Shown here piece after piece: positions 52,788-58,908 of a DNA stretch of 64,000 nucleotides. The position numbers and the translations under genes are program-made. Origin of the DNA: an uncultured SAR86 cluster bacterium. GTDB taxonomy: Bacteria > Pseudomonadota > Gammaproteobacteria > Magnimaribacterales > D2472. The DNA lies in NCBI GenBank assembly GCA_902517505.1, contig CABYCL010000001.1, positions 29,006-93,005 on the forward strand, written 5' to 3'. How positions within the stretch are numbered: position 1 is the first letter of the stretch; every line of letters starts with the position of its first letter. Below the pieces are notes generated by a model, which was not told the DNA's origin, ran no database searches, and saw nothing but the letters and a program-made list of their open reading frames with translations.

Positions 52788-52888
52788 CCTGGTGAGCGAA
52801 TTTTCATTAATTAGTTTGATAAAGTCTTTTGGTAATTTTTTCTTTAAGATTGCTTTTTTCAAGACTATTCATAAATCACTGTTTCCTT
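52788..52888. other. Intergenic stretch between the glycan cluster and the cassette array
   Basis: No gene is seen here. A short T-rich run near 52839-52860 could end transcripts arriving from the left. The distal arm of the array (ATAAATCACTGTTT, 52871-52884) marks its edge. Confidence 0.4.
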
Positions 52889-52906
52889 CATCTCCACCGT
52901 CACTGA
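52889..52906 (-). repeat. glmS-tail repeat A (most distal, stop lost)
   Basis: Reads TCA GTG ACG GTG GAG ATG on the minus strand: Ser-Val-Thr-Val-Glu with the stop changed to ATG. It is followed by the AAACAGTGATTTAT arm (52871-52884). Confidence 0.75.
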
Positions 52907-52932
52907 TTGGTTTTAAACTTTGATTTAATTCT

Positions 52933-53376
52933 TTATTTTCCAGTTGAAATATTTATTGGAATTATAGCGATCTTTAATTTCCAATAATCTCCTCTTTTTA
53001 TTAAAGTTAAATTTGTATCTGTAGATATAAGTTCAACATCTTGGTTGTTAAATCTAGTGAAGTTAGTTTTATATATTGCAAAATCTTCTTGTGAAACTAT
53101 TGGATCTATCGAATTGATTTTTGAATATGCCCAACCTTCTTTTTTTAAGTTTTCATAATTAACAATTTCACTGTAACTTTTTGCAACTACTATTTCATCA
53201 CCAACAAAATAAGTAATTGGTAAATCCCATAGTTCATTAATTTTATTTATATCCATCTCATTGAAATGATAGAAAAAATCTTCGATCACTTTCTCTGGGT
53301 TGTTGTTTGCGTCTTTTGCAAATAACAAAGAAGAAAATAAAAATAAAGTTAATAAAATATTTCTAATATAAATCAC
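52933..53376 (-). CDS. Secreted NTF2-like (SnoaL/DUF4440-type) protein in cassette B-A, GTG start
   Basis: The 147-residue protein starts with GTG inside the repeat arm (AACAGTGATTTATA), so its first codons (Met-Ile-Tyr-Ile) come from the arm. A signal peptide ends near LLFAKDA. The mature part, VIEDFFYHFNEMDINKINELW, resembles the NTF2-like fold (DUF4440/SnoaL-type). Function is unknown. It is in the glmS direction. Confidence 0.7.
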   Translation of the reverse strand: MIYIRNILLTLFLFSSLLFAKDANNNPEKVIEDFFYHFNEMDINKINELWDLPITYFVGDEIVVAKSYSEIVNYENLKKEGWAYSKINSIDPIVSQEDFAIYKTNFTRFNNQDVELISTDTNLTLIKRGDYWKLKIAIIPINISTGK

Positions 53377-53385
53377 TGTTTTCTT

Positions 53386-53403
53386 CTATTCCACAGTAAC
53401 GGA
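53386..53403 (-). repeat. glmS-tail repeat B (fused to the end of the DUF6607-like gene)
   Basis: Reads TCC GTT ACT GTG GAA TAG, and forms the actual last codons of the 53386-54483 gene. The arm AAAACAGTGATTTATA follows (53367-53382) and contains the GTG start of the next gene. Confidence 0.85.
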
Positions 53404-54483
53404 GTAGCCATAACCAGATTCTCTTTTTTCAATATGTTCATCAATTGTGGTTTCTATCTTATCAATTGCATCTAAATTGCCGTTCTTATAATCATCTGCT
53501 AATCCAAACAATCGTGCGAATAAAATATTACCGTCGACATCTGAATTAACTTTAATTTTTTTTGATTTTTCTGTCTTTTCTCCCCAAACTACTCTTACTT
53601 TTTTCCAAAAGTCTGAAGTTTCATCCCAATAGGTATATCCTGCCGACCAATCGAAGTTTTCTATTCTTTGATATCTTGCTAAACCAATTTCTTTTGCAAT
53701 AACTTTGTTGTCTAGTGTTGCTTTATTGTTGTTTTGTTCATGAACCCATCCATTCGGGGTAATTGTGTGTATATTTGTTCCAATAACAATATCGTAATCA
53801 TCTCTTATGGTCGCCTCCCTTCTTGGAAGAGGTCTTTTTGTTTCATTACTTGTCCATGATGATGAGTTTGAAAAATGTTTCCATTCCCCAAAACCCTCGT
53901 ATCTTGGTGAATCATCAACTTGATAAACCGTTTGTGACCAAGTTCCCTTTCTATCACTGTAGGATAGATTTTTTCTTTCCCATGTATTTTCTCCAACAAA
54001 CTCATTAATTGAATTATCTTGGTATTTCCAATCTTGTCTCCAGTGTTTAACAACAATAGGATCTGAGGTCGTCCCATCATCTTGTTCAAAGAACATGACC
54101 ATTATGTGTTGCAGACTTATGAAATCCTTTTCATCTTCAACCGCGATTACAAATTCTGTTCCCCATGACTGATAAGGTTTTGGCGGTATATAGTCCTTAG
54201 TGAAACCCATTGTCTCCATGAAATCAAAATTAATTTTATGTTCGCCTTGCATTGCAAGAATTGCTAACCTATCTTTTTCAAATTTGGTCAATTCATCATT
54301 TTGTATTTCCTTCCATAAAGGGTTGGGAGTTTTATCTAAGTCAACATCTGGACCTGAGGAAGTTCCTCCTCTTGGTGTCATCAAGTCTGGATTATCTAAT
54401 TGGGTCCATCCAAATACATAATTGCTATCAGAACTTAAAATTAGTTGACTAAAGAAAATTGCTATAAAGAAAAATATTCTCAT
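53386..54483 (-). CDS. Secreted DUF6607-like protein whose last codons are a glmS tail
   Basis: The 365-residue protein has a signal peptide (to about residue 17) and text I recognise as DUF6607-like: WGTEFVIAVEDEKDFISLQHIMVM, VKHWRQDWKYQD, TWSQTVYQVDDSPRYEGFGEW and PLPRREATIRDDYDIV. The final residues YSVTVE and stop coincide with the repeat core, so the gene end appears to have been replaced by, or fused to, a glmS tail. The original C-terminus may be missing. It starts seven bases downstream of repeat C. Confidence 0.75.
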   Translation of the reverse strand: MRIFFFIAIFFSQLILSSDSNYVFGWTQLDNPDLMTPRGGTSSGPDVDLDKTPNPLWKEIQNDELTKFEKDRLAILAMQGEHKINFDFMETMGFTKDYIPPKPYQSWGTEFVIAVEDEKDFISLQHIMVMFFEQDDGTTSDPIVVKHWRQDWKYQDNSINEFVGENTWERKNLSYSDRKGTWSQTVYQVDDSPRYEGFGEWKHFSNSSSWTSNETKRPLPRREATIRDDYDIVIGTNIHTITPNGWVHEQNNNKATLDNKVIAKEIGLARYQRIENFDWSAGYTYWDETSDFWKKVRVVWGEKTEKSKKIKVNSDVDGNILFARLFGLADDYKNGNLDAIDKIETTIDEHIEKRESGYGYSVTVE

Positions 54484-54489
54484 TGGAAG

Positions 54490-54507
54490 CTATTCTACAG
54501 TGACTGA
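54490..54507 (-). repeat. glmS-tail repeat C
   Basis: Reads TCA GTC ACT GTA GAA TAG, preceded by Leu-Phe-Lys codons shared with copy G. The inverted arm lies at 54515-54530. Confidence 0.85.
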
Positions 54508-54525
54508 CTTGAACAAAACAGTGAT

Positions 54526-54900
54526 TTATATATCTAGCAGTGGATTTCTTCCCCATTTATTTTCATCTTCTTTTGCTGGAAGCATTACTAAAATTAAAAT
54601 TACGAATATCCCAATAATTGTGATGTAGGATAGTTGCCACCATCCAGAAATGCCTCTGTCTTGCAATCTTCTTGATGTGACTGACACGCTAGGAATAAAA
54701 GTTATGATTTGAAATAGTGCTGAAAATGGTCCATAACCAATTTCTTCATTAAATATTCCTAAAAACACTTCTACAAATCCTAATACGAATGCAATTAGAG
54801 ACACTGAAAGAACAAAATACCAATACTCGCTTCTGCATGCTCTTCCATGAAAATTTTTCCAATTAGTAAAAACTGAAATAAATGATTCTTTAATATTCAT
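54526..54900 (-). CDS. DUF805 family membrane protein in cassette D-C
   Basis: The 124-residue protein has the DUF805 signature WKNFHGRACRSEYWYF, then PSVSVTSRRLQDRGISGWWQL and the end NKWGRNPLLDI. Four membrane helices are visible. DUF805 proteins are often found in mobile or phage-linked settings. It is bounded by perfect 13-base inverted arms and has its own start after GAGAAG. Confidence 0.85.
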   Translation of the reverse strand: MNIKESFISVFTNWKNFHGRACRSEYWYFVLSVSLIAFVLGFVEVFLGIFNEEIGYGPFSALFQIITFIPSVSVTSRRLQDRGISGWWQLSYITIIGIFVILILVMLPAKEDENKWGRNPLLDI

Positions 54901-54931
54901 AATTATCTTCTCTGTAAATCACTGTTTAAAA

Positions 54932-54949
54932 TTACTCCACCGTAACAGA
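54932..54949 (-). repeat. glmS-tail repeat D
   Basis: Reads TCT GTT ACG GTG GAG TAA. The arm at 54915-54927 is the perfect inverted partner (13 bases) of the copy-C arm at 54516-54528. Confidence 0.85.
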
Positions 54950-54979
54950 GTTGTCGTAGCAAGGTTTCTCATTGTTCAT
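54932..54979 (-). CDS. Very short ORF ending in the glmS-tail codons (15 aa, doubtful)
   Basis: The ORF reads MNNEKPCYDNSVTVE, starting four bases after the lipoprotein stop and using repeat D as its last five codons. It may be a chance ORF or a remnant; there is no sign of function. Confidence 0.25.
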   Translation of the reverse strand: MNNEKPCYDNSVTVE

Positions 54980-54983
54980 TGTT

Positions 54984-55274
54984 TTATTCAACGGTTTCTA
55001 CTATATCAACTATCCAGATAGTTCTATCCACACCGTCATTATACTTACGCATTTTTCTTACCTCTACTTGTTCTTCGTGTTTAGTGCAGAACTTAGTAAT
55101 TCTTTCGCCATTTTTTAAGTTAAAAATATCTAGATAATCGTCATCACTAAAATGATATATCTTGAAATCGTGACTTATAATTTTTCCTCCAGTTATTCCT
55201 AATGCAGTGCTAGCACATCCTGTAGTTAAGAAAACAATTAAAGATAAAAAGATTGTTTTTTTAAAGAATTTCAT
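54984..55274 (-). CDS. Small lipoprotein in cassette E-D
   Basis: The 96-residue protein has a clear lipobox (LTTGC, Cys20). The mature part is short and charged (DDDYLDIFNLKNGERITKFC) and ends IVETVE. The end (GTTGAATAAAACA) resembles the bases after the glmS stop, possibly a degenerate ninth tail. No family is recognised. Its ATG overlaps the preceding small ORF in an ATGA arrangement. Confidence 0.65.
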   Translation of the reverse strand: MKFFKKTIFLSLIVFLTTGCASTALGITGGKIISHDFKIYHFSDDDYLDIFNLKNGERITKFCTKHEEQVEVRKMRKYNDGVDRTIWIVDIVETVE

Positions 55275-55399
55275 CTTAACAAATCACTGTTTAAGATTAC
55301 TCCACCGTTACTGAGTGTATTTGAACAGAGAATAATATTTTTGTCATTTTTGAACTTTTTATGAAACGTTTTATAAAACTTAATATATTTTTCTTCCAT
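55271..55399 (-). CDS. Small basic ORF reading through repeat E (42 aa, doubtful)
   Basis: The ORF begins MEEKYIKFYKTFHKKFKND and passes through the repeat E core in a frame other than the glmS one before ending at the ATGA start of the lipoprotein gene. It starts six bases after the 31-aa gene. Tight spacing at both ends suggests coupling, but the passage through a repeat in the wrong frame argues that its tail is not original. Real translation is uncertain. Confidence 0.3.
   Translation of the reverse strand: MEEKYIKFYKTFHKKFKNDKNIILCSNTLSNGGVILNSDLLR
55297..55314 (-). repeat. glmS-tail repeat E
   Basis: Reads TCA GTA ACG GTG GAG TAA. Arms are present on both sides (55281-55292 and 55323-55335). 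Confidence 0.85.
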
Positions 55400-55501: not shown

Positions 55502-55617
55502 TTAATTATCTGTTCAAATCTACTCGACAGTAACGGACTAAGTTTAGTCGGTCTTTTATTCTCCACTATTTCTGTGATGTTTGAAAGGTCTGAAATTTGC
55601 TTGTATAGAGTATACAT
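55498..55617 (-). CDS. Small ORF reading through repeat F (39 aa, doubtful)
   Basis: The ORF begins MYTLYKQISDLSNITEIVEN, three bases after the preceding gene's stop, and reads through the repeat F core in a non-glmS frame. It ends in an ATGA overlap with the 31-aa gene. As with the ORF across repeat E, the spacing suggests coupling but the C-terminal part derives from the repeat. Confidence 0.3.
   Translation of the reverse strand: MYTLYKQISDLSNITEIVENKRPTKLSPLLSSRFEQIIK
55520..55537 (-). repeat. glmS-tail repeat F
   Basis: Reads TCC GTT ACT GTC GAG TAG. The arm at 55505-55515 pairs with the arm at 55323-55335 of copy E (10 of 11). Confidence 0.8.
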
Positions 55618-55620
55618 AAT

Positions 55621-56001
55621 TTAACTTGAGTCCTTTATGAATTCTGCTTTTGTTACCCCAATAGACCTCTTCCAATGCTGGGTTCCGCCCCACAGAAAAC
55701 CTTTTATCTTAATTTTAGTTCTCTTTTTAAGAAGATTATTAAGATCGTTTAGTTGGTCATCATTAAGTATGACGTGAATTTGATCGGTATTTATTGGTCC
55801 AACTCCATCATCAAAGCAGGTTTCTTCATCTAAATGAAAAATATAATATGTTATTTCCTCGCCATGATCCCAAAACATAGTACCTCTAACTTCGAATAGT
55901 TCTCCATTTAAAGGTGAGGAACTCATATTTTGGTGGGTTACACAGTTGTCTGCAAAAAGTGGTATGTTAAAAATCAAAATTAAGAAAAGTAATTTATTCA
56001 T
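55621..56001 (-). CDS. Secreted DUF4431-like protein in cassette G-F
   Basis: The 126-residue protein has a signal peptide (to about residue 17). The body, FEVRGTMFWDHGEEITYYIFHLDEETCFDD then KIKIKGFLWGGTQHWKRSIGV, recalls the DUF4431 pattern, with a possible disulfide between two cysteines. The call is from memory and moderate. It overlaps the lipoprotein gene upstream by four bases. Confidence 0.65.
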   Translation of the reverse strand: MNKLLFLILIFNIPLFADNCVTHQNMSSSPLNGELFEVRGTMFWDHGEEITYYIFHLDEETCFDDGVGPINTDQIHVILNDDQLNDLNNLLKKRTKIKIKGFLWGGTQHWKRSIGVTKAEFIKDSS

Positions 56002-56312
56002 TTTTTATCACAATTAAAATTATGAAGTCCTGCTGATGTAGAAAGTTTTTCGCCATCCTCATACCAAGCAAATGAAGTCTCACCGTTTGTAAAGAGGGTC
56101 ATTCCATATGATGTTGTTAAATGTGGATGAAGGTAGATTTTATTTCCTGAATTACCTATTTCAATAGAAATAGATGTTCTATCTGCGCTTACTGTTGCAT
56201 CAATACTTCCACCACAAGTATATTTGATTTCTTTCTCTGCCTTGCTACAAGAAAGTACGATAAAAAATACAAATATTAAAGGTAAATTCTTTAACTTAAT
56301 TATTTTTTTCAT
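55998..56312 (-). CDS. Lipoprotein, possibly MliC-like, in cassette G-F
   Basis: The 104-residue protein has a lipobox (VLSC, Cys22). The mature part has cysteines in YTCGGS and FNCDKK at its two ends. A strand-rich middle with SAFAWYEDG-like text (SFAWYEDGEKL) resembles MliC/PliC lysozyme inhibitors. That similarity is weak and only suggestive. The gene is co-oriented with glmS. Confidence 0.6.
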   Translation of the reverse strand: MKKIIKLKNLPLIFVFFIVLSCSKAEKEIKYTCGGSIDATVSADRTSISIEIGNSGNKIYLHPHLTTSYGMTLFTNGETSFAWYEDGEKLSTSAGLHNFNCDKK

Positions 56313-56511
56313 TCTTAAATTCTGCCATAACTCCCTATAAATGTCTTATGAATACACATAAGAGACCGCAACAAGTCATGGCAACACCTTGTGACTTCCG
56401 CTAACACGAAAAAATAGGTGGAATTTTTAGTATAGTTTTTAACCGGATATATTTTTAGCGATTTTTAAACCCCCCGCAGAATGCGGGATTAAAATGAAAG
56501 ACGGGTTAAAC
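56313..56511. other. Intergenic stretch in cassette G-F
   Basis: No gene is seen in these 199 bases. They contain a GC-rich hairpin at 56473-56487, a separate AAGTCA/TGACTT inverted pair near 56371-56395, and a TATACT-like hexamer on the minus strand near 56425. This is the longest non-coding stretch in the array and may hold a terminator and the promoter of the 56312 gene. Confidence 0.4.
56473..56487 (-). terminator. Hairpin, possible terminator after cassette H-G
   Basis: CCCGCA-GAA-TGCGGG forms a perfect six-pair stem with a three-base loop. In the minus direction it is followed by only three T then A-rich sequence, so a strong intrinsic terminator is not assured. Confidence 0.35.
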
Positions 56512-56529
56512 TTACTCCACCGTGACTGA
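56512..56529 (-). repeat. glmS-tail repeat G
   Basis: Reads TCA GTC ACG GTG GAG TAA, preceded by the same Leu-Phe-Lys codons as copy C; 22 bases are identical between the two. The arm AAAACAGAGAAT lies at 56537-56548. Confidence 0.88.
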
Positions 56530-56555
56530 CTTGAACAAAACAGAGAATAAGATTC

Positions 56556-57053
56556 TCAATTATCTTCAACCCGTTCAAAAACAACAGAACATCCCCGGTA
56601 CCACTCACCTGATTGTCGATTATTTCCTAGATTGCAAAACATATTAATATCATGACCTCCTTTAGTATTGTTGTCACTGATAAAAAAGAATGGTCTTATA
56701 TCTTTGCTTCTTTGAACTATGTCCTTTGATTCAACAATACCTGAACATACTTTTCCTTGTGATTCAATGTAAGACCCTATCTTATCTGACCACTCTACAC
56801 CAGGGTCTAACCAAATTTGTTTCATTACACTATCTGTGTCTAATTTAACTCTATAGTCTTCATATGATTTATGAGTTCTTACCAAAATCGCCTTGAAGCA
56901 GGCATCCCCTTTTACTTTTCCAGTATTTCTGAAGTCACAAGAGGCAATCCCTCGCCCGTTAAGGGTACAATCATTTTCAATATTAGGTTCTCCACAACTG
57001 GTAAGAAATAGGGTTAATAAAAAGGTAAGATATATCTTATATTTTCTTTTCAT
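56556..57053 (-). CDS. Hypothetical lipoprotein, first gene of the cassette array
   Basis: The 165-residue protein has a lipobox (LTSC, Cys20). Five further cysteines occur (NDCTL, SCDFR, ACFK, VCSG, FCNL and RGCS region), suggesting disulfides. No family is recognised. AAGGAG lies six bases before the ATG and overlaps the region just after the arm, so translation does not need glmS. It lies between perfect 12-base inverted arms, the clearest cassette. Confidence 0.7.
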   Translation of the reverse strand: MKRKYKIYLTFLLTLFLTSCGEPNIENDCTLNGRGIASCDFRNTGKVKGDACFKAILVRTHKSYEDYRVKLDTDSVMKQIWLDPGVEWSDKIGSYIESQGKVCSGIVESKDIVQRSKDIRPFFFISDNNTKGGHDINMFCNLGNNRQSGEWYRGCSVVFERVEDN

Positions 57054-57081
57054 AACTTCTCCTTCAATTCTCTGTTTTATT

Positions 57082-57099
57082 CTATTCCACCGTGACTGA
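57082..57099 (-). repeat. glmS-tail repeat H (current glmS 3' end)
   Basis: Reads TCA GTC ACG GTG GAA TAG, the real end of glmS. The arm ATTCTCTGTTTT at 57067-57078 is a perfect 12-base inverted partner of the copy-G arm at 56537-56548. Confidence 0.9.
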
Positions 57100-58908
57100 T
57101 TTCGCTAAGTTTCTTGGTTGATCAATATCAGTTCCTCTTAACAAAGCAACTTCATATGAAAGTATCTGAAGAGGAATAGTATAAATAATTGGCGTGAGAA
57201 TAAAATCACATTTTGGCATATTGATTAGTTTTCCTGATTGTAAATCCATTGTTATTGATGGATCAGCAAACACATAAATGGTTCCACCTCTTGCTTTAAC
57301 TTCCTCTAAATTAGAAACAAGCTTTTCTGCGATTTCACTCTCTGGCGCTAATGCAATTACTGGCATTTCCTCATCAATTAATGCTAATGGTCCATGTTTT
57401 AACTCGCCTGCGGGGTATGCTTCAGCATGAATATATGAAATTTCTTTTAATTTTAAGGCTCCTTCTTTTGCGATCGGATAAAAAATCCCTCTACCCAAGA
57501 ATAATGCATTGTCTTTGTTAGCTATTTCTGGAGCAATTTCTATAATGGTATCTTTTAATTTTAGAGTTTCTTCAACCGTATCTGGCAAAGATCTTAAGGC
57601 TGTAATAACTCTTGTTCTTAATTTCGGATTTATTTTTCTACTTTTTGCTAAAGATAAGGCTAATAGCATTAAGGCCGCAAGTTGCGTTGTAAAAGCCTTT
57701 GTTGATGCAACTCCAATTTCTGGACCAGCATTTGTAAAAATTGAATAGTCAGATTCTCTTGCAAGTGAGCTCGTTGGGACATTGCATATGCATAAAGTTG
57801 AAAGATAGTTTTTTTCTTTTGCATATCTTAGTGCAGCTAAGGTATCAGCGGTTTCTCCAGATTGAGAAATTGTTACTAATAAGGAATCTTCATCAACATG
57901 TGGGTTTCTATATCTGTATTCTGAGGCATAATCAGTTTGTGTTGGTAATCCTGAAATCGATGAAAACCAATTAGCGCCTACTCTTCCAGCATGCAAGCTA
58001 GTTCCACAAGCAACAATTTGTATTCTCTTAACTTTTTCAAATAATTCAGATGATCCAAGTCCAAATATATTATCCAAAACATCTTCTCCGCCAACTCTTC
58101 CATCAATGGTATTCAAGATAGCGTCTGGTTGCTCATAAATTTCTTTTTCCATGAAATGTTTATAGTCACCCTTTGAAGTTGATTGGCTAGAAATATCAAT
58201 CTGTGTAACTTCTCTTTGAACCTCTTTCTTTTCTGCGTCATAAATCGTATAGCTTTCAGAAGAGAGCTCAGCAACATCTCCATCCTCAAGAAAAATAAAT
58301 TCATTAGTTAATTGTCCAATTGCTAATGGATCTGAGGCTGCCAAAAATTCATCAACTCCCACTCCTATTAAAAGAGGAGACTTGCTTCTTGCTATCGTTA
58401 CATTTGTATCATCTTCTTTGTCTATTGCTGCAATTGCATATGCCCCTTCAATTTTTTCTTTTGTTAGGTACATTGAATCAAGCATTGAATTCCCTTTGTT
58501 AAGAAAATATTCAAGCATATGTGCAATGAGTTCAGAATCAGTTTGTGATGAGAACGTATAGCCTTCTTTTTTAAGAAATTCTTTTAAATCTAAATAATTC
58601 TCAATAATTCCGTTATGAACTATGTATACCCTTTCATTAGACTTATGTGGGTGAGCATTTTCTTCAGAAGGCTCTCCATGTGTTGCCCATCTGGTGTGAG
58701 CAATGCCTAGTTTGCTTTTTGGTTTTTCAGTAATCATCTTTTCTTCTAGCAAATTAACTTTTCCTAGAGTTCTTAAATGAGCAATCTTGTCAATTTGATG
58801 GAGGGCTATTCCTGCAGAATCATAGCCTCGATATTCCATTTTGTGCAAGCCTTGGACTAACAGTTTTCCTACATTACGGTTTGAAGCAGCCGCTATTATT
58901 CCACACAT
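57082..58908 (-). CDS. glmS: Glutamine-fructose-6-phosphate transaminase GlmS
   Basis: GlmS makes glucosamine 6-phosphate from fructose 6-phosphate and glutamine, the first step towards UDP-GlcNAc, peptidoglycan and LPS. The 608-residue protein begins MCGI with the amidotransferase cysteine and has HTRWATHG, the two SIS domains (ACGTSLHAG, SQSGETADT) and the conserved end RNLAKSVTVE. It starts three bases after glmU. Its 3' end is the Tn7 attachment site in other bacteria, and here is followed by the cassette array. Confidence 0.97.
   Translation of the reverse strand: MCGIIAAASNRNVGKLLVQGLHKMEYRGYDSAGIALHQIDKIAHLRTLGKVNLLEEKMITEKPKSKLGIAHTRWATHGEPSEENAHPHKSNERVYIVHNGIIENYLDLKEFLKKEGYTFSSQTDSELIAHMLEYFLNKGNSMLDSMYLTKEKIEGAYAIAAIDKEDDTNVTIARSKSPLLIGVGVDEFLAASDPLAIGQLTNEFIFLEDGDVAELSSESYTIYDAEKKEVQREVTQIDISSQSTSKGDYKHFMEKEIYEQPDAILNTIDGRVGGEDVLDNIFGLGSSELFEKVKRIQIVACGTSLHAGRVGANWFSSISGLPTQTDYASEYRYRNPHVDEDSLLVTISQSGETADTLAALRYAKEKNYLSTLCICNVPTSSLARESDYSIFTNAGPEIGVASTKAFTTQLAALMLLALSLAKSRKINPKLRTRVITALRSLPDTVEETLKLKDTIIEIAPEIANKDNALFLGRGIFYPIAKEGALKLKEISYIHAEAYPAGELKHGPLALIDEEMPVIALAPESEIAEKLVSNLEEVKARGGTIYVFADPSITMDLQSGKLINMPKCDFILTPIIYTIPLQILSYEVALLRGTDIDQPRNLAKSVTVE

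Follow-up and report, generated by a model that had tools for sequence, protein, structure and literature searches.

The window, a 64,000-nucleotide stretch of a SAR86 genome, carries on its reverse strand a glmS gene (57082..58908) with SIS and GATase domains; named relatives of this gene place the genome in SAR86. An array of gene cassettes has its insertion target at the 3′ end of glmS (...AKSVTVE*). SAR86 bacteria are among the most abundant in the ocean and have small genomes, and nearly all that is known of them comes from single-cell and metagenome assemblies. The glmS tail, TCAGTCACGGTGGAATAG, codes for SVTVE* and holds the first core (57082..57099, reverse strand); an 18-bp copy of this tail (TCNGTNACNGTNGARTAR) recurs at each junction of the array. 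Seven further copies lie 3′ of glmS on the same strand, at 56512..56529, 55520..55537, 55297..55314, 54932..54949, 54490..54507, 53386..53403 and 52889..52906, the last being slightly off consensus and followed by a further AACAGTGATTT at 52873-52883. These cores split the region into seven cassettes of 223–1104 bp.

The cassette adjoining glmS encodes a 165-aa predicted lipoprotein with no Pfam match (56556..57053, reverse strand), set between a left arm at 57067..57078 (reverse strand) and a right arm at 56537..56548 (forward strand). The perfect 12-base inverted pair that the first-pass annotation described here was recovered exactly, with AAAACAGAGAAT at 56537-56548 and its inverse ATTCTCTGTTTT at 57067-57078 (12/12). 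The second cassette (55538-56511) contains two small secreted or lipoprotein ORFs of 104 and 126 aa (55621..56312, reverse strand) and is apparently the unit G-F that had been said to lack inverted ends; it does have them, in a different arm type (AAGTTTAACCCGTCTTTC at 56496..56513 on the reverse strand versus AAGTTTAGTCGGTCTTTT at 55540..55557 on the forward strand). The 223-bp third cassette, unit F-E, has a near match between its arms at 55505..55519 (reverse) and 55319..55333 (forward), in agreement with the near-perfect ends claimed for it. A 96-aa predicted lipoprotein (54984..55274, reverse strand) occupies the fourth cassette, and a DUF805 membrane protein (54526..54900, reverse strand) the 442-bp fifth (54508-54949), where the 13/13 pair reported for unit D-C is present as AAACAGTGATTTA at 54915..54927 (reverse) and its inverse at 54516..54528 (forward). 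The sixth cassette encodes a DUF6607 protein (53386..54483, reverse strand) whose frame continues into the next core (...GYGYSVTVE*). In the last (52907-53403, unit B-A), a 147-aa protein with a GTG start (52933..53376, reverse strand) lies between a left arm at 53369..53381 (reverse) and a degenerate right arm at 52915..52927 (forward), as degenerate as first described. Clear matched arms are found in four of the seven cassettes, with a degenerate pair in the last; 54950-55296 and 53404-54489 truly have no matched pair, and the earlier statement that unit G-F lacks ends falls for the second cassette. We also asked whether cassettes without inverted ends are, as a rule, fused in frame to the core; this proved true of the DUF6607 family only.

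The motif AACAGWGAWTT occurs seven times in the window against 0.53 expected, a count reached by 0 of 100 shuffles. Six copies are inside the array, and the single copy outside is near chance level, giving no sign of arms placed around nonvariable genes. The search for arm pairs adjoining glmS tails that had been proposed was run and was positive across the order. There are about a dozen arm types, of which AAACAGWGAWTWA is one, and a search restricted to it would overlook most cassettes.

Wherever the locus includes glmS, the SAR86 arrays examined all begin at its tail. In the window's own genus, the tail is the first core in each of the 26 genomes with a glmS 3′ end (the window's included), and in nearly all of these loci one or more additional cores follow, with differing cassettes, a few contigs ending first; a reversed-pattern control for the core returned zero matches in this genus. 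An order-wide search located the exact core in 153 of 203 SAR86 genomes, representing 20 of 22 genera and four families. Other Gammaproteobacteria (n = 271) normally have the core once, occasionally twice and never three times; within this sample, arrays are therefore specific to SAR86. Variation in the core is concentrated at codon third positions, with the other bases nearly fixed even at internal, mostly noncoding junctions, which suggests that synonymous glmS changes are tolerated by the enzyme that recombines the core. At one locus, L036, a core 247 bp past glmS is inverted while the flanking cassettes keep their orientation, and both adjacent arms take the opposite role there. A GC-rich non-SAR86 gammaproteobacterium (G224, locus L229) has a second in-frame glmS tail (DVDQPRNLAKSVTVE) 1.9 kb past the first, with a 448-aa ORF between the two, and may represent an independent element at the same target.

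Cassettes have a median length of 0.68 kb and are mostly 0.1–2 kb. Among representative proteins, nucleases and methylases comprise restriction-modification proteins, MvaI/BcnI, N6/N4 and C5 methylases, HsdR, Mrr, DpnI, ResIII and YhcG; the remaining cargo includes HNH proteins, lipoproteins, DUF805, MerC, SMR and sulfotransferase-like proteins, and many unknowns. One 1.55-kb sulfotransferase-like cassette is nearly identical across several SAR86 genera (L142, L145, L146, L149, L156, L164, L166, L171 and L175).

We compared 104 pairs of cassettes of about equal length from different genomes, and many were 96–99% identical where glmS was only 65–78% identical. The pair L170/L199, from two families, shares 1391 bp at 99.2% identity with glmS at 65%, and window cassettes 4 and 6 are 96.5% and 97.1% identical to cassettes of L051, with glmS at 77%. 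Homology usually sets in no more than a few bp from where the first core starts and stops about 17 bp into the second. Near-identical cassettes across diverged glmS genes, with homology bounded by cores, indicate that cassette boundaries are real recombination points. Identical single cassettes are also found in entirely different contexts, and the array of a sister genome (G021), whose GlmS protein is 98% identical, is entirely different.

The position of the exchange was mapped by linkage analysis of nearly identical cassette ends in new contexts, each site being counted once. The bases at core positions 3 and 6 stay with the cassette upstream (18/18 and 17/18, against 5/16 and 6/16 for the one downstream), and those at positions 12 and 15 stay with the cassette downstream (15/16 each, against 7/18 upstream for position 12), placing the exchange between core positions 6 and 12. 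A conserved AC dinucleotide at positions 7-8 is within this interval. Position 9 is partly linked downstream (9/16) and unlinked upstream (1/18), and changes more often than its neighbors when a cassette changes context. This behavior is not predicted by a clean 2-bp exchange and counts against the explanation favored below.

Arms were scored in 232 cassettes (149 nucleotide clusters) with an arm-match cut-off of at least 8. This score was reached at one register in 112 cassettes (48%) and at other registers in 0–3, compared with 8.4% for mismatched left-right pairs. The symmetry center falls between core positions 7 and 8; matching is 0.82–0.93 at 15.5–25.5 bp from the center and drops to background past about 28 bp. 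Two matched inverted arms, symmetric about the core AC, are thus present in about half of the cassettes and absent from about half. Arms match within cassettes (47%) and only at chance level across junctions (5% vs. a null of 6.5%), ruling out homotypic neighbor insertion. The arms are part of the cassette and lie symmetrically around the crossover as mapped, and the first-pass suggestion of recombinase arm sites is accordingly well supported. About a dozen arm sequence types were distinguished, the common ones on unrelated cargo. Mismatches of the G.T wobble kind show no strand bias (23 vs. 22), so pairing in RNA or in one DNA strand is not an evident constraint. Intact arms are commonest in the glmS-proximal cassette (0.71) and rarer further in (p = 1.4e-5, a value that, like the other arm statistics, is only indicative as it comes from related genomes), a gradient that entry of new cassettes beside glmS would produce.

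A search for PF00589 in 34 genomes of the genus gave two matches of ~300 aa in nearly all, which we take to be XerC and XerD, and a third, weaker match in two genomes. Y1/HUH transposases, absent from the same 34 genomes, were ruled out as the enzyme. Serine recombinases (PF00239) were matched in only 6 of 203 SAR86 genomes, in one of them at glmS. This gene lies in a 6047-bp cassette of genome G031 (L039) with arms AGTCGGTCTTTC, where the last gene, ending 25 bp before the core, encodes a 551-aa large serine recombinase (PF00239, PF07508 and a weak PF13408 match) related to SPbeta YokA and the TP901-1 integrase; its phage relatives are only <60% identical. The element also has a match to a replication-associated protein (PF23343). 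Arms of the AGTCGGTCTTTC type are found on recombinase-less cassettes of other species as well, at L043, at L048 and on the right side of window cassette 2. A single genome in 203 with a serine recombinase at glmS leaves the identity of the enzyme unproven. The other two large serine recombinases of the family, at L137 (G026) and L138 (G088), have no convincing core at their ends; their C-termini read like a translated tRNA 3′ end and they are probably tRNA-integrated elements. Viral carriers of cassettes were set aside after scans of IMG/VR, where no relative of the G031 recombinase was found and type-A attP and core patterns gave zero matches or apparent chance matches in phage genes, with no carrier contig. 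A protein of 64–114 aa with the motif 'GYRKIskfLNrsGIkThtgk' recurs in cassettes with differing arms and cargo (L194, L155, L167, L170, L175, L148, L168, L043 and L189), and by eye only resembles the helical part of serine-recombinase DNA-binding domains.

These results are best explained by an additive, integron-like gene-cassette array anchored at the SAR86 glmS 3′ end. The data show each cassette to be a mobile unit bounded by a crossover within the 18-bp core, and we favor, with a probability of about 0.55, this explanation as a whole, including a large serine recombinase acting in trans. A circular cassette would present arm, core and arm as an attP-like site of about 54 bp and would insert into the core in the glmS tail, thereby regenerating glmS (...SVTVE*) and leaving the cassette with an arm on either side. 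In this scheme the catalytic and recombinase domains would read the conserved core and the zinc domain the variable arms; the recombinase would come from rare driver elements, of which the 6-kb one of G031 is an example, and most cassettes would be nonautonomous. In serine integrases, contacts made by a dimer cover about 50 bp of attP, the zinc-domain motif being at positions 16-24 (PMC3783163), and attP and attB are functionally symmetric around an asymmetric central dinucleotide (PMC3642061); the SAR86 arm geometry matches these published sites. A mobile array with half-sites is very probable. The serine recombinase itself we rate at an even chance or slightly better, given one genome in 203 with the gene at glmS and about a dozen arm types on one target, a diversity that zinc-domain recognition alone hardly accounts for. 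Such an enzyme would also need a glmS motif for each zinc-domain specificity, and such motifs could not be shown. The cassettes that lack matched arms, about half of the total, and the absence of a carrier contig from IMG/VR likewise weigh against the favored explanation.

Alternatively, a resident or other recombinase might read the paired arms by structure, as a folded single strand or cruciform, like IntI with attC, the arms drifting while continuing to match. We regard this as unlikely, although it would accommodate many arm types on one target, high-turnover arrays with almost no recombinase genes, and the concerted change of arms on homologous cargo seen in the L049/L149/L050 family. Contrary to this reading, there is no wobble strand bias and transversion mismatches are many, arm types are discrete and common to unrelated cargo, each genome has XerC and XerD with rare extras and no integron integrase, and the genus has no Y1 transposase.

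Movement of cassettes only by homologous recombination, through repeated cores or identical neighbors after DNA uptake, would make the arms leftovers of old mobile elements. Some neighboring cassette pairs are indeed shared as blocks, and intact arms decay away from glmS, but the core is only 18 bp and has wobble variation, breakpoints map to a few bases within it, and identical single cassettes occupy entirely different contexts. The 34 genomes of the genus have no match to ComEC (PF03772) despite extensive DNA exchange, and natural transformation was accordingly set aside; we consider homologous recombination alone improbable.

It is very doubtful that the inverted repeats are the termini of DDE-type or Tn7-like transposons, as the first-pass annotation had allowed. 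Terminal inverted repeats and a glmS target, which is that of Tn7, would fit; however, the glmS-derived core common to the cassettes is regenerated and partitioned at the crossover rather than duplicated as a short target downstream of the stop, all arm types are at one site, and no transposase is present among the Pfam families shown for cassette proteins; this origin was rejected. That the arms are RNA processing stems isolating each cassette transcript is likewise very improbable and was dismissed: cassette genes run mostly in the glmS direction with an arm on each flank, but the sense strand has no G.U bias, Rfam gave no match and the center of symmetry coincides with the DNA crossover.

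The glmS site would be a main entry port for new genes in SAR86, including many restriction-modification and other defense genes, and the array accounts, to the base pair, for a hypervariable segment. Should serine recombinases be its drivers, it also offers naturally diversified att half-sites on one common core. It is possible, though we propose this tentatively, that the order as a whole possesses a cassette-capture platform separate from integrons. Its universal docking site would be a conserved protein-coding tail, and each cassette would bring its own matched pair of recombinase half-sites, diversified in specificity, with rare serine-recombinase elements or another enzyme acting in trans.

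Among known systems, tycheposons target tRNA genes and span 4–200 kb according to PMC10872708, and carry a tyrosine recombinase of their own, compared with a glmS target, a median cassette of 0.68 kb and no extra tyrosine recombinase in nearly all genomes here. Tn7-like transposons likewise use the glmS 3′ end, but insert downstream of the stop with TnsABC/TnsD-type genes, whereas the SAR86 crossover is inside the tail, which is regenerated, and no Tns proteins were seen among the cassette proteins. Integrons and CALINs share with the SAR86 array mostly single-gene cassettes, defense cargo, polarity towards the anchor and a cassette-borne site. An integron was ruled out by the absence of IntI from the PF00589 search of the 34 genus genomes; the conserved part is the glmS tail, and an attC site has R''-L''-L'-R' entirely at the 3′ end of the cassette. 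The SAR86 arms instead sit at both cassette ends, symmetric around the crossover, and a circle would hold the core between them.

Serine-integrase elements (phiC31, Bxb1, A118/LI) are similar in half-site geometry, asymmetric central dinucleotide and regeneration of the target, and set against the geometry in PMC3783163 the SAR86 arms and core form a symmetric attP-like site of ~50 bp around such a dinucleotide. A bona fide large serine recombinase adjoins this site in one array, in the 6-kb G031 cassette and not in other cassettes. Unlike these elements, SAR86 cassettes are mostly 0.1–2 kb, tandem and mostly without a recombinase, with about a dozen arm types for one target.

The closest known kind, to which we assign the SAR86 glmS array, is the additive flexible genomic island with tRNA-tail repeats described for Ca. 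Methylopumilus (PMC10872708) and Ca. Actinomarinales (PMC7771536). Stepwise insertions at one site and direct repeats of the target 3′ end between cassettes were found here, and the two also have in common small variable cassettes, streamlined aquatic hosts and intergeneric gene transfer. In contrast, the SAR86 target is protein-coding, its repeat varies at codon third positions, and it has a mapped crossover and cassette-specific matched arms, which go unmentioned in the available portions of both papers. Additive islands have so far been without a mapped mechanism, and the crossover and candidate recombinase sites mapped here make the mechanism directly testable. We found no paper describing the SAR86 glmS array in a literature search that excluded preprints and subscription papers. 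The array is real and mobile, and looks like an undescribed integron-like gene-swapping site.
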